64,000 nucleotides of DNA from Candidatus Poribacteria bacterium (GTDB taxonomy: Bacteria > Poribacteria > WGA-4E > WGA-3G): the NCBI GenBank assembly GCA_028821605.1, contig JAPPFM010000056.1, positions 1-64,000 of the forward strand. The letters are read 5' to 3'. Shown here in pieces: positions 40,669 to 44,795 of the stretch (positions are counted from its first letter, which is position 1; every line of letters begins with the position of its first letter). Below the pieces are notes generated by a model that saw nothing but the letters and a program-made list of their open reading frames with translations, was not told the DNA's origin and ran no database searches. A program made the translations under genes and the position numbers.

Positions 40669-40766
40669 AGGTTCCCTTTACCGAATTCCGCGATTCAGAA
40701 AAAATTTTAAACCCTTTTCCCAAAATTTTCCCTCTTTATAACTGAAATCTTATTGGGGATTTGTCT

Positions 40767-43700
40767 ATGCGATATGATTCATCAACGTACACAGACTTGA
40801 CAGATGAAGAACTCATTCGGCTCGTGCAATCGGGGGATGAGAAAGCATTTGCGCAACTCGCAGCCCGCTATAGTTCGAGAATTTGGCAATTGGTCGTCTG
40901 GAACTCCCGCCAAGCCCGCGATGCTGAAGAGATCTTTCAGGACATTTGGGTAGCCGTCTGGGAAAACATCGGCGGTCTCCGAGAGGTCAGTAGTTTCGGT
41001 GCATGGCTTCGGAAGATAGCCTATACTACCTGCAGAAGGTACTACACCCGCAACACGCGTGCAAGCAGTGAAATCCTTCAGAGTGCGGAGCAGCTGGCTG
41101 AAACTATTGATCGAAATGCGATTGCTCGTTTTCGAGAGACAGAATTTCGCGCAGCTGTAGCGGAGGCAGTGTATGACCTTCCTGAGAAGGTGCGTACTGT
41201 CGCAGTACTGTATTACTTAGAGATGTGGACCATCAAAGAGATTGCGGAGGAGATCGGCTTGGCAGTTGGTACCGTCAAGACGAGGCTCAGAGAGATTCGG
41301 GCACTCCTGCGTAAGGAATTTGGTGTTGAAGAGGTTAAGAGGGAAACAACTATGACGCAAAAAAAAGAGGTATCCAAGTCGTCGCAAAACATCATTAAAG
41401 TCTTCGGTGTCGGCGACGCGGGTGGCAACGCCATCAAACGGATGATTGCGGCCGGTTTGAAAGAAATTGAGTTTTACGCTGTGAATACGGATTTAGAAGC
41501 ACTCCGCACGTGTGATGGGGCAACACAGGTGCAAATCGGTGCTGAAATCACGCAAGGACTTGGTGCAGATGCGAATCCAGAGGTAGGCAGAGGGGCGGCT
41601 GAAGAAGATTTGGAAACGCTCAATACCGTCGTTGCGGATGCGCGCCTGGTTTTTGTTGCTGCCGGCATGGGTGGCGGGACAGGGACAGGTGCAGCACCTT
41701 TAATCGCATCTCTCGCCCGGGAGCAGGGGGCTTTAACAATAGGCGTTGCAACAAGCCCGTTCGATTTTGAGGGACAACGCCGCGCCGAGCAAGCAGGATA
41801 CGGACTTCAGGAACTCCGAGACAACACTGATGCCGTTATCGTGATCCCGAATCAGCGACTCCTTGATACTGTGGATGTGGAGCCCTCAACGAGCGAAGCG
41901 TTCAGCATGAGCGATGAAACCGTGGTGCTCGGCATTAAAACTATCGCCGATATTATTGTGGAGTCGGGCGAGATTAACGTTGACTTTGCCGATATAGAGA
42001 GCATCATGAACGATGCTGGCACGGTGATGATGGGTGTAGGACAAGCGAAAGGTGAAAACCGGGCGCGAATCGCTATGGAAAACGCTATGACCTCACCACT
42101 GCTGGATGGGAAAAGCATTGGAGGTGCAACTGGGTTGATCACTACAATTAGTGCCCCACAAGACTTCATGATGAATGAGTTGGATGCATCAATGAGTGTG
42201 CTTCAAGATGAGGCATTCGACGCACAGATTATTTTTGGACTCGCCTATAGGGACGATGATGATCCTGAACCTGATGACACGGTTATCGTCACTATCCTTG
42301 CAAACAAGGTTGAACCACAGCGTGGATCGACCACTCCACTCTCGACTCAGAAGAGCGATACCTCTCCCGAAGGTGGTACTTCTGTTCCGTCCACAACCGG
42401 TTCCGAATTTGTTCATCTACACAACCATAGCGAATACAGCATGCTCGATGGGGCATGCCGTATTCCGGATATGGTGGATTGGGCGGTTGAAAACAGCGTT
42501 CCTGCTGTCGCACTCACCGACCACGGCAACATGTTCGGCGCATGGGAACTCTACAACAAGGCAACAGAGGCGGGGGTTAACCCGATCATCGGTTGTGAGG
42601 TGTATGTCGCACAGGGGAGTCGAAAGACGCGTGAGCAGGAACAGGGAGATCCCTATCACCTTACACTGCTTGCAGAGGATGCAACCGGCTATAGGAATCT
42701 CTTAGAGCTGGTATCACTCGGATACACGGAGGGTTTCAATCGCAAGCCGCGGATTGACATGGAAATCCTGCGCGAATACCGTGATGGGATTATCGCGCTG
42801 ACGGGGTGTATCCAAGGACAGGTACCGCAACTCATCTGTGCAGATCGGCGAGACGAAGCGATTCAGAATTTCAAAACCTTGATGGAGATCATGGGGAAAC
42901 GGAACCTCTACGTTGAGGTGCAGAATCACTACATTGACAAGGAACTTGAGGCGTATCCGGTGATGGTCGAATTGGCGAAAGAGTTCAATCTTCCACTCGT
43001 CGGCACAAACGATTGCCACTATCTGCGCAAATCTGACCACGGGATGCACGATGTACTCCTCTGTATCCAGACCAAGAAAACTGTCAATGACCAGGAACGG
43101 CTCCGCTATGACAACCACTTCTACTTTAAAAGCGTTGACGAAATGCGAGAGGCACTGAAGGATTATCCACCGGAGGCGATCAGCAACACGTTTGAAATTG
43201 CGAATCGGTGCAACCTTGAACTCGACTCTCAACGCGACCCGATGCCGAAATACGAGGTCCCCGCAGGGTACACACACGACAGTTATCTCAAAGAGTTGTG
43301 CTACCAAGGCTTACGCGAGAAATATGGCGAACTCTCTGAACCTATCCGACAGCGGATTGATTACGAGTTGGGGATTATTAAACAAAGAGGGCACGCCAAC
43401 TATTTTTTGATTGTTGGAGATTATGTCAACTACGCCCAAAAACAGGGATACCCACTTTCTGCCCGCGGTTCTGCAGCTGGTAGTCTCGCGCTGTATGCGC
43501 TTGGTGTGATTAGTTTCAATCCGATGGATCACGGTTGTCTGTTTGAACGGTTCTTAAACCTTGAACGTCTTGCTCCACCGGATATTGATGTTGATTTCGC
43601 CGACCGCGCCCGTGAACATGTGGTTGAGTATTTAACAAAAAAATATGGCGCGGATTCCGTGGGTAAAGTCGCTACCTTTGCCACATTGGGGGCGAAAGCG

Positions 43701-44795
43701 GCTATCAAGGATGTCGGACGCGCGCTTGAGGTGCCGCTTAAAAATGTCGAAAAGTTGACCGAACTTATTCCGTCTATTCCCGGTATAACACTTGATGAAG
43801 TTTTGGAACGGATGCCCGAATTTCAGACACTTGCGGAGCTCCCTGAAAATCGGGAGTTGATGGATTTCAGCAAAGCGGTGGAAGGTATGAAACGGCACGT
43901 TTCCTGTCATGCCTCCGGAATCGCGATTTCAGACGGTCCGCTGACAAATTACGTTCCACTCTTCAAGGATAGACACGACCAAGTGGCAACGCAGTTTGAG
44001 GGTAAAGCCGTTGAAGATGTCGGCATCGTCAGACTTGATTCCCTCGGTTTACGGAGTCTTAGCGAGATACACGACTGTCTTCAGATGATTGAGACGAACC
44101 ACGGTGTTAAGCTTAAACTGGAAGAGATTCCTTTTGACGATAGGGAAACCTACTCCCTCGTTAGCAACGGACTTATTGCCGGTTTATTCCAGTTGGAAGG
44201 CTCCGAGGGTATGCTTCGCGTTGTCACAGAACTCAAACCGGACAATTTTGAGGAGTTCTCCGCTATTCCGGCACTCTATCGTCCCGGACCGATAGAAAAT
44301 GGAGATATGCAACAGTACATAGATCGGAAGAACAGATTGCAGTCCGTAGCGTATATACATCCTTCGCTTGAAGGTGTGCTTAAAAGCACTTATGGGGTCT
44401 GTATCTACCAAGAACAGGTGATGCAAATCGCACACGATATCGCAGGCTTTACGCTCGGTGAAGCGGATATCCTTCGCAATGCAATGGGGAAGAAAAACGA
44501 GGTATTGATTGCCGCGCAGCGTGAGAAATTCGTTGAGGGTGCGGTGAAAAAGACAAACCTCGCTAAAAGCGAGGCTGAAGAGGTGTTTGATTGGTTGGAG
44601 TCAGTTGGGTACTATGCCTTTAATAAGTCGCATACTGTCGCTTACTCAATGTTGGCGTACCTAAAAACGCATTATCCAAGTGAATTCATGGCGGCAGTGA
44701 CAACCGGGGAGGCAGGCGATTCAACGAAAATTGCCCGCTACCGAGAAGAGTGTGCGAAACTCTCTGATTTCTTGGGTGTAGCAGTCAATGTGTAG
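40767..44795 (+). CDS. ECF sigma factor - FtsZ - truncated DnaE polymerase in one reading frame
   Basis: A single 1342-codon frame. Residues 1-195 are an ECF sigma factor: region 2 (RDAEEIFQDIWVAVWENI) and region 4 (LPEKVRTVAVLYYLEM and GTVKTRLREIRALLRKEFG). Residues 196-513 are FtsZ: IKVFGVGDAGGNAIKRMI, AVNTDLEAL, the GTP loop GGGTGTG (about 301) and the T7 loop NVDFADI (about 404). Residues 514-547 are a Ser/Thr/Pro-rich linker. Residues 548-1342 are DnaE: a PHP domain (FVHLHNHSEYSMLDGA), GSAAGSLALYALG, catalytic PDIDVDF (about 938) and LDSLGLRSL (about 1090), ending after SHTVAYSMLAYLKTHYPSEFMAA. The helix-hairpin-helix, beta-clamp, OB and tau-binding parts are absent, about 330 residues short of E. 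coli DnaE. ATG 40767 has GGGGA upstream. An internal start for FtsZ-DnaE exists at 41352. Confidence 0.85.
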   Translation: MRYDSSTYTDLTDEELIRLVQSGDEKAFAQLAARYSSRIWQLVVWNSRQARDAEEIFQDIWVAVWENIGGLREVSSFGAWLRKIAYTTCRRYYTRNTRASSEILQSAEQLAETIDRNAIARFRETEFRAAVAEAVYDLPEKVRTVAVLYYLEMWTIKEIAEEIGLAVGTVKTRLREIRALLRKEFGVEEVKRETTMTQKKEVSKSSQNIIKVFGVGDAGGNAIKRMIAAGLKEIEFYAVNTDLEALRTCDGATQVQIGAEITQGLGADANPEVGRGAAEEDLETLNTVVADARLVFVAAGMGGGTGTGAAPLIASLAREQGALTIGVATSPFDFEGQRRAEQAGYGLQELRDNTDAVIVIPNQRLLDTVDVEPSTSEAFSMSDETVVLGIKTIADIIVESGEINVDFADIESIMNDAGTVMMGVGQAKGENRARIAMENAMTSPLLDGKSIGGATGLITTISAPQDFMMNELDASMSVLQDEAFDAQIIFGLAYRDDDDPEPDDTVIVTILANKVEPQRGSTTPLSTQKSDTSPEGGTSVPSTTGSEFVHLHNHSEYSMLDGACRIPDMVDWAVENSVPAVALTDHGNMFGAWELYNKATEAGVNPIIGCEVYVAQGSRKTREQEQGDPYHLTLLAEDATGYRNLLELVSLGYTEGFNRKPRIDMEILREYRDGIIALTGCIQGQVPQLICADRRDEAIQNFKTLMEIMGKRNLYVEVQNHYIDKELEAYPVMVELAKEFNLPLVGTNDCHYLRKSDHGMHDVLLCIQTKKTVNDQERLRYDNHFYFKSVDEMREALKDYPPEAISNTFEIANRCNLELDSQRDPMPKYEVPAGYTHDSYLKELCYQGLREKYGELSEPIRQRIDYELGIIKQRGHANYFLIVGDYVNYAQKQGYPLSARGSAAGSLALYALGVISFNPMDHGCLFERFLNLERLAPPDIDVDFADRAREHVVEYLTKKYGADSVGKVATFATLGAKAAIKDVGRALEVPLKNVEKLTELIPSIPGITLDEVLERMPEFQTLAELPENRELMDFSKAVEGMKRHVSCHASGIAISDGPLTNYVPLFKDRHDQVATQFEGKAVEDVGIVRLDSLGLRSLSEIHDCLQMIETNHGVKLKLEEIPFDDRETYSLVSNGLIAGLFQLEGSEGMLRVVTELKPDNFEEFSAIPALYRPGPIENGDMQQYIDRKNRLQSVAYIHPSLEGVLKSTYGVCIYQEQVMQIAHDIAGFTLGEADILRNAMGKKNEVLIAAQREKFVEGAVKKTNLAKSEAEEVFDWLESVGYYAFNKSHTVAYSMLAYLKTHYPSEFMAAVTTGEAGDSTKIARYREECAKLSDFLGVAVNV
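41337..41354 (+). promoter_or_regulatory. Internal ribosome-binding site and ATG at the sigma/FtsZ junction
   Basis: AAGAGGG at 41337-41343 is followed eight bases later by an in-frame ATG (41352-41354), exactly where FtsZ homology begins. This would allow the FtsZ-DnaE part to be made separately as a protein of about 1147 residues, besides the full fusion. Confidence 0.6.

Follow-up and report, generated by a model that had tools for sequence, protein, structure and literature searches.

RsiP is the anti-sigma factor of sigma-P, an extracytoplasmic function (ECF) sigma factor. In Bacillus thuringiensis, the penicillin-binding protein PbpP, a homologue of the target of the antibiotic, is the beta-lactam sensor for sigma-P and is a separate protein needed for RsiP cleavage (PMC8092216). 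In other ECF sigma factors, C-terminal extensions, including TPR and WD40 types, assume the anti-sigma role (PMC8999054). A third precedent is the late transcription of phage T4, in which a promoter-specificity factor (gp55) works with a sliding clamp (gp45) that tethers RNA polymerase to DNA (PMC7892883). Here, we describe a gene from a Candidatus Poribacteria bacterium (assembly GCA_028821605.1, contig JAPPFM010000056.1, positions 1 to 64,000 of the forward strand; these 64,000 nucleotides are referred to as the window) that continues an ECF sigma factor into copies of FtsZ and of the DNA polymerase III alpha subunit, DnaE. The gene is almost certainly a single selected unit, judging from its sequence conservation, in which an ECF sigma factor carries duplicated, captured core machinery at a locus that holds other captured proteins in relatives.

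Like the ECF sigma factors with C-terminal extensions, the encoded protein has only sigma regions 2 and 4 and, after them, an extra C-terminal part. No anti-sigma gene was recognized among five neighbors scanned, and a related clade in these genomes bears WD40 repeats. The difference is that here a core enzyme (of replication, division, or the purine pathway) has been copied to form the extension, and which one it is differs among related species at one locus; the main texts of the two reviews searched mention neither FtsZ nor polymerase III. In sigma-P, the target homologue acts as a separate protein, whereas the target copy here would be fused. The T4 pair of specificity factor and clamp resembles what the sigma-DnaN relatives described below could be, although gp55 and gp45 are phage-encoded, are not covalently joined, and come without an FtsZ or polymerase module.

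The initial annotation, made from the sequence alone, had reported 1342 codons without a stop, and this frame was confirmed at window positions 40767-44795, with a TTG at 40761 as a possible alternative upstream start. Pfam and NCBIfam also upheld the reported domain order of an ECF sigma factor, FtsZ, a Ser/Thr/Pro linker, and DnaE PHP and polymerase domains (Table 1); in addition, FtsZ proved nearly full length, and DnaE lacks its C-terminal third. All Pfam matches exceeded their curated cut-offs: Sigma70_r2 (residues 32-98) and Sigma70_r4_2 (131-180) in the sigma part, Tubulin/FtsZ GTPase (210-369) and FtsZ_C (418-512) in the middle part, and PHP (550-721), DNA_pol3_alpha (839-1094), and DNA_pol3_finger (1098-1262) in the DnaE part. 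The NCBIfam sigma model TIGR02937 scored 82.3 bits on the sigma part; TIGR00065, the equivalog model for ftsZ, reached 328.1 bits against a cut-off of 295.2, and TIGR00594, the polc superfamily model, reached 922.4 bits against 434.35. The two top-scoring DnaE equivalog models remained below cut-off (957.2 versus 1260 and 942 versus 1002). The motifs GGGTGTG, NVDFAD, PDIDVDF, and LDSLGL are present as had been described.

Both fused enzymes are paralogs that stand beside canonical genes, for which the initial annotation had recommended searching. A canonical dnaE elsewhere in the genome encodes 1173 residues and is 79% identical to the fused part, which comprises only 797; the missing C-terminal third is the clamp-, OB-, and tau-binding region. 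A canonical ftsZ, 59% identical to the fused copy, is likewise found elsewhere. The FtsZ C-terminal tail binds division partners, and in the fusion this tail is not free, its position continuing into the linker and DnaE. The active-site residues are kept in these homologues. When the fused DnaE was aligned with the solved DnaE 2hpi (phmmer E 4.4e-204), with 3e0d, and with 12 canonical copies, the palm aspartates and the metal ligands of the PHP domain were retained, among them the pair of aspartates replaced by Asn in 3e0d and the remaining PHP residues matching 2hpi.

The same domain order was found intact in 21 of 38 genomes of the genus (numbered with the prefix G), including the single-contig chromosomes G004 and G009, and at five divergent Poribacteria loci (about 60% identical in sigma, 48-55% in FtsZ, and 70% in DnaE). 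The three-part protein joining a transcription part with replication and division parts is therefore genuine, as initially proposed, and is not a set of separate genes joined in one assembly. Divergent relatives were classified among the best 80 of 109 (79 loci) from a scan of genome contigs with the sigma part, and all 79 loci belonged to Poribacteria, which are associated with sponges. Three divergent loci (L297, L325, and L326) have sigma-FtsZ with no DnaE domain; the same permease gene precedes both L325 and L326, recognized at 70% identity in one of the two genomes and by eye in the second. Within the genus, the sigma clade is present in 37 of 38 genomes and the window lineage (at least 72% identity) in 34, where a single open frame, 473-1758 amino acids long, runs through the sigma part and the joint at 37 of 37 places. 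The FtsZ-DnaE fusion is broken in two of the 34 (G014 and G047), FtsZ stands alone in five, with DnaE gone or cut at its first residues (G007, G022, G023, G046, and G053), DnaN occupies the same locus in three (G021, G050, and G052, the last without most of DnaN domain I), and in three more the only fusion found was one with DnaN at another locus (G011, G043, and G044). Synteny was compared in 23 of the 30 further genomes that have the gene at the locus (leaving out G001, G003, G005, G006, G013, G015, and G019), with the contig of G040 covering the downstream side only.

In the FtsZ part of the 21 orthologs, the T4 loop GGGTGTG and both T7 aspartates are invariant, and the T7 Asn is kept in 18. 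Ten fused DnaE parts were inspected (5 of the 21 orthologs and the 5 divergent genes); the palm aspartates are kept in all ten and the PHP ligands in nine, with G040 as the exception. Eleven orthologs possess a longer tail (at least 1420 residues in total), which in G002 scores as HHH_6; the fusion in G002 (L127, 915-6149) extends about 330 residues into what is a separate 344-residue frame in G048.

Among the fusion orthologs, the median ratio of nonsynonymous to synonymous substitution (dN/dS) is 0.095 for sigma, 0.18 for FtsZ, 0.38 for the linker, 0.060 for PHP, and 0.100 for the polymerase (200 pairs with dS < 1.2, 197 for the linker; the pairs are related and not independent). Canonical copies gave 0.053 for PHP (11 pairs), 0.064 for the polymerase (6), 0.039 for FtsZ (21), and 0.069 for DnaN (5), and the further modules gave 0.257 and 0.239 for DnaN, 0.175 for half-FtsZ, and 0.195 for WD40, using pairs with dS of 0.05-1.5, of which canonical DnaE and DnaN furnish 5 to 11. 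The fused PHP is about as constrained as its canonical counterpart and the fused polymerase somewhat less, and fused FtsZ and DnaN are under weaker yet clear constraint. The captured FtsZ, DnaE, and DnaN modules are thus all under purifying selection.

The identity of the captured protein varies at a fixed place. The locus holds FtsZ-DnaE, FtsZ, DnaN, or, in G022, tandem sigma-FtsZ and sigma-PurC genes; no purC was found in G022, an 84% complete genome, besides sigma-PurC. Further fusions in the window genome include a sigma-WD40 and a second sigma-FtsZ in which FtsZ is only half a protein. DnaN also occurs on a second ECF type, in 12 of the 15 genus genomes searched; none of the matches listed for nine genomes of other genera was a fusion of this kind. 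In the DnaN tree, the second-type rows (14) fall into one clade and the window-type rows (8) into another, so there were two captures of DnaN. G020 and G041 have PurC on a second-type ECF in addition to a canonical purC, the sigma part being 69-77% identical to L074 and L067 and about 30% identical to that of the window. Several modules are incomplete: DnaE lacks its tail, FtsZ may be halved, and DnaN of G052 lacks most of domain I. The initial annotation had entertained an evolving replicase, an idea that is not supported, given the full-length dnaE elsewhere and the missing C-terminal third; because relatives hold DnaN or PurC instead of, or beside, FtsZ-DnaE, an exchangeable core-protein module on a sigma factor is the better description.

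We infer from these sequences that the modules are genes captured with their own ribosome-binding sites into a pre-existing sigma linker. By eye, the DnaN type has kept the short linker found ahead of FtsZ in the FtsZ type. At L111, a GGAGGCTT leader near the fused DnaN, inside the frame, resembles the native dnaN leader (L140), and carry-over of the native leader is plausible for DnaN. The same origin is not plausible for FtsZ, as native ftsZ today has no Shine-Dalgarno sequence (L004, +0.4 kcal/mol). Paired adjacent dnaN matches without a sigma part were also seen in several genus genomes (G003:C91, G013:C5, and G005:C14).

Phylogenetic analysis placed all 16 fused rows of the DnaE tree in one clade (support 96/99), which indicates a single DnaE duplication and leaves no sign of gene conversion from canonical dnaE. 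Two DnaE paralogs without a sigma part from other Poribacteria (L338 and L341, 956 and 1090 amino acids) form a sister pair in this tree. In the FtsZ tree, for which 196 of 373 columns were used, L325 and L326 fall among the divergent FtsZ-DnaE genes (86/64), as they do in the sigma tree; because of this grouping, they may have lost DnaE rather than predate its arrival. The sigma tree groups the DnaN, FtsZ-only (G022 and G053), and PurC forms of one species group together (98/92) in no firm order, compatible with either a domain swap or replacement of the whole gene in the DnaN type; row L314 has an absurd branch length of 10 in this tree, and divergent rows were given little weight.

The promoter region is conserved along with the gene. 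The pattern AAACC-N18-CTCTT lies 5′ of 21 of 21 FtsZ-DnaE orthologs and 5 of 5 divergent ones and is shared by paralogs (sigma-WD40, 5/6; sigma-half-FtsZ, 20/35; other sigma-FtsZ, 2/3); 7 of the 8 half-FtsZ misses shown have CTCAT. The background is 5 sites in 351,814 strand-bases, with the clade's own sites included, and many other ECF genes of the genome display, by eye, a GCAACC...CGTCA motif instead. Such conservation would be expected if a clade-specific sigma factor acted on its own gene, and it suggests an ECF-type promoter specific to the clade and recognized by its own sigma factor. The longer pattern TTAAACC-N17-19-CTCTT has six sites in the 6-Mb genome compared with four for a reversed-pattern control; their number is not above chance and only their positions are informative. 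Three lie 5′ of the three clade genes, two 5′ of other ECF genes, and one has no evident gene. The sites at the two other ECF genes, one of them a sigma-AhpC/TSA (G000:C13:57530-57559 and C59:25397-25426), are a possible sign of a sigma cascade or a relic.

At the first junction, an in-frame ATG (41352) follows a strong Shine-Dalgarno sequence. Pairing with the anti-Shine-Dalgarno before this FtsZ Met amounts to −6.3 kcal/mol here and averages −8.0 over the 21 orthologs; the remaining in-frame ATGs have a median of about −1.5, and in 15 of the 21 none of them pairs as strongly. The sequences compared are related and not independent. The Arg codon AGG at the joint is kept in 19 of 21 orthologs versus 8.6% of Arg codons in these genes, and in the other fusions examined the pairing before the first Met of the module ranges from −6.6 to −12.6 kcal/mol. 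A second product without sigma, starting at the internal ATG, is plausible on these grounds.

We favor, with a probability of roughly 40%, a reading that makes the captured copy a built-in sensor for, or regulator of, the sigma factor to which it is joined. The gene would transcribe itself from its own AAACC-N18-CTCTT promoter, and the captured module would stand in for an anti-sigma factor. Inputs to the FtsZ part would be GTP and FtsZ, and those to the DnaE part would be DNA, deoxynucleoside triphosphates, or partners of the PHP domain; the ligands, polymer, or partners of the module, or an agent attacking those proteins, would then decide whether sigma is loaded on RNA polymerase. Ribosomes starting at the internal ATG would produce FtsZ-DnaE without sigma and thereby set the ratio of sensor to sigma, and swapping the captured protein would supply a new input with promoter specificity unchanged. 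Conservation of the open fusion across the genus, varied modules at one locus, repeated capture of DnaN and PurC, a promoter of fixed spacing, purifying selection, the precedents of C-terminal extensions and of PbpP, and the lack of a recognized anti-sigma gene among five neighbors (one of them without a Pfam match) support this reading, and incomplete modules fit sensing better than enzyme supply. Several observations weigh against it. FtsZ and DnaE retain their catalytic residues, for which an enzyme role is the simpler explanation, and in G022 PurC has its full length and shares 86-95% identity with canonical copies. Of the 34 lineage genomes, 7 have a lost or broken DnaE part and six more have DnaN instead, so DnaE is not always needed. 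No regulon beyond its own paralogs and two ECF genes was found in the 6-Mb genome, where the site count is near the control. An AlphaFold2 model of residues 1-545 (20 sequences; mean pLDDT, the predicted local distance difference test score, 74.3; predicted template modeling score 0.58) has sigma and FtsZ as two separate folded domains, with low confidence at the joint (186-206), predicted to be disordered, and at the end (517-545), and supports no docking between them. A similar Shine-Dalgarno-like stretch also occurs at this joint in two ECF genes with a non-core extension (L067, −8.7 kcal/mol), so it may belong to the sigma linker and not to the module.

Of the other accounts, a stress-induced spare enzyme seems possible though on balance unlikely. 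Here, sigma would activate its own mRNA, and the internal start would provide an extra FtsZ, polymerase-exonuclease, clamp, or PurC to help during inhibition of, or damage to, the native protein, with the fusion as a read-through by-product. The pairing energies before the module Met in the other fusions, the intact palm aspartates and PHP ligands of the inspected DnaE parts, the near-equal PHP dN/dS (0.060 versus 0.053 canonical), and the full-length PurC all favor it, but modules are often partial (DnaE without its C-terminal third, half of FtsZ, some DnaN lacking a domain), and internal starts alone would not demand a joint frame that is open at 37 of 37 lineage places. Integrated decoys are known from plant immune receptors, and by analogy the ECF sigma factors could carry bait copies (FtsZ, DnaE, DnaN, and PurC) of phage or antibiotic targets, such that attack on the bait would trigger a transcriptional defense and the bait would be swapped between species at a fixed locus. 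This account we hold to be distinctly unlikely; a search for integrated decoys in the bacterial, phage, and sensor literature returned, by title, matches on plant or fungal immunity or plant pathogens.

Slightly less credible again is a tether, in which the module would bring sigma to the Z-ring or replisome so that its promoters follow division or replication. FtsZ, DnaE, and DnaN are all parts of localized machines, and the sigma-FtsZ joint is predicted to be disordered. TDGKRL, a motif of the clamp pocket, is preserved in all six clade-A DnaN fusions, yet in the second DnaN type Gln replaces its Arg in 12 of 12, and MPMRL, the C-terminus of the clamp in most of the canonical copies inspected, is altered in 6 of 6 clade-A fusions; moreover, the DnaE part has no C-terminal region and PurC belongs to no division or replication machine. 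The T4 clamp offers a precedent (PMC7892883). An assembly chimera or a decaying, functionless read-through fusion, both raised by the initial annotation, is highly improbable. Chimerism or chance is excluded by the 21 intact orthologs, which include those of the single-contig chromosomes G004 and G009. As for decay, the loss, breakage, or replacement of the DnaE part in some lineages, seen in the broken copies of G014 and G047 and the five genomes with FtsZ alone and DnaE cut short, speaks for that suggestion, but dN/dS of 0.06-0.18 in the folded parts, well below 1, contradicts it, and a pseudogene is rejected for the family as a whole.

Table 1. Features of the sigma-FtsZ-DnaE gene and its promoter, in window coordinates
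Feature	Position	Strand	Evidence
ECF-type promoter TTAAACC-N18-CTCTT	40707..40736	+	5′ of gene, motif conservation in orthologs
ECF sigma factor, regions 2 and 4, residues 1-190	40767..41336	+	Pfam, TIGR02937, median dN/dS 0.095
Shine-Dalgarno-like AAGAGGGA and in-frame ATG (41352), possible internal start	41337..41354	+	Anti-Shine-Dalgarno pairing, AGG conservation
FtsZ module, residues 196-512	41352..42302	+	TIGR00065, motif conservation, median dN/dS 0.18
Ser/Thr/Pro linker	42303..42401	+	Mean identity 0.60; pLDDT < 50 at residues 517-545
Truncated DnaE (PHP, palm, thumb, fingers), residues 546-1342	42402..44792	+	Pfam, phmmer 2hpi, dN/dS PHP 0.060, polymerase 0.100

A Pfam scan of five neighboring genes returned TatD, no match, BPD_transp_2, SBP, and Peptidase_M23; no anti-sigma gene was recognized among them, and a divergent one could hide in the neighbor without a match. 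A survey of 79 match sites in the genome gave 77 ECF-like frames, most with C-terminal extensions; many are near 1000 amino acids and have, as judged by eye, a segment of membrane type downstream of sigma. Ten ECF matches occur along a single stretch (G000 C16:47000-90000). Within 25 kb at G000:C55:88000-112000, two extended sigma genes, a sigma-half-FtsZ, and a sigma-DnaN are located among membrane proteins resembling ABC-type permeases; the extended sigma gene scanned there has no Pfam match past sigma.

The initial annotation knew of no protein with this architecture, and no description of a sigma fusion to FtsZ, DnaE, DnaN, or a purine enzyme was found in the literature searched, mostly by title and without coverage of the main ECF reclassification paper. 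The repeated capture of core genes by ECF genes is a test bed for the origin of regulatory domains. If the captured copy senses the state of its machine, replication and division would be linked directly to gene expression through a part that can be exchanged, and such modules would offer ready-made sensors of FtsZ, DnaE, or clamp inhibitors. The locus may represent a novel means of connecting gene control with essential machinery.

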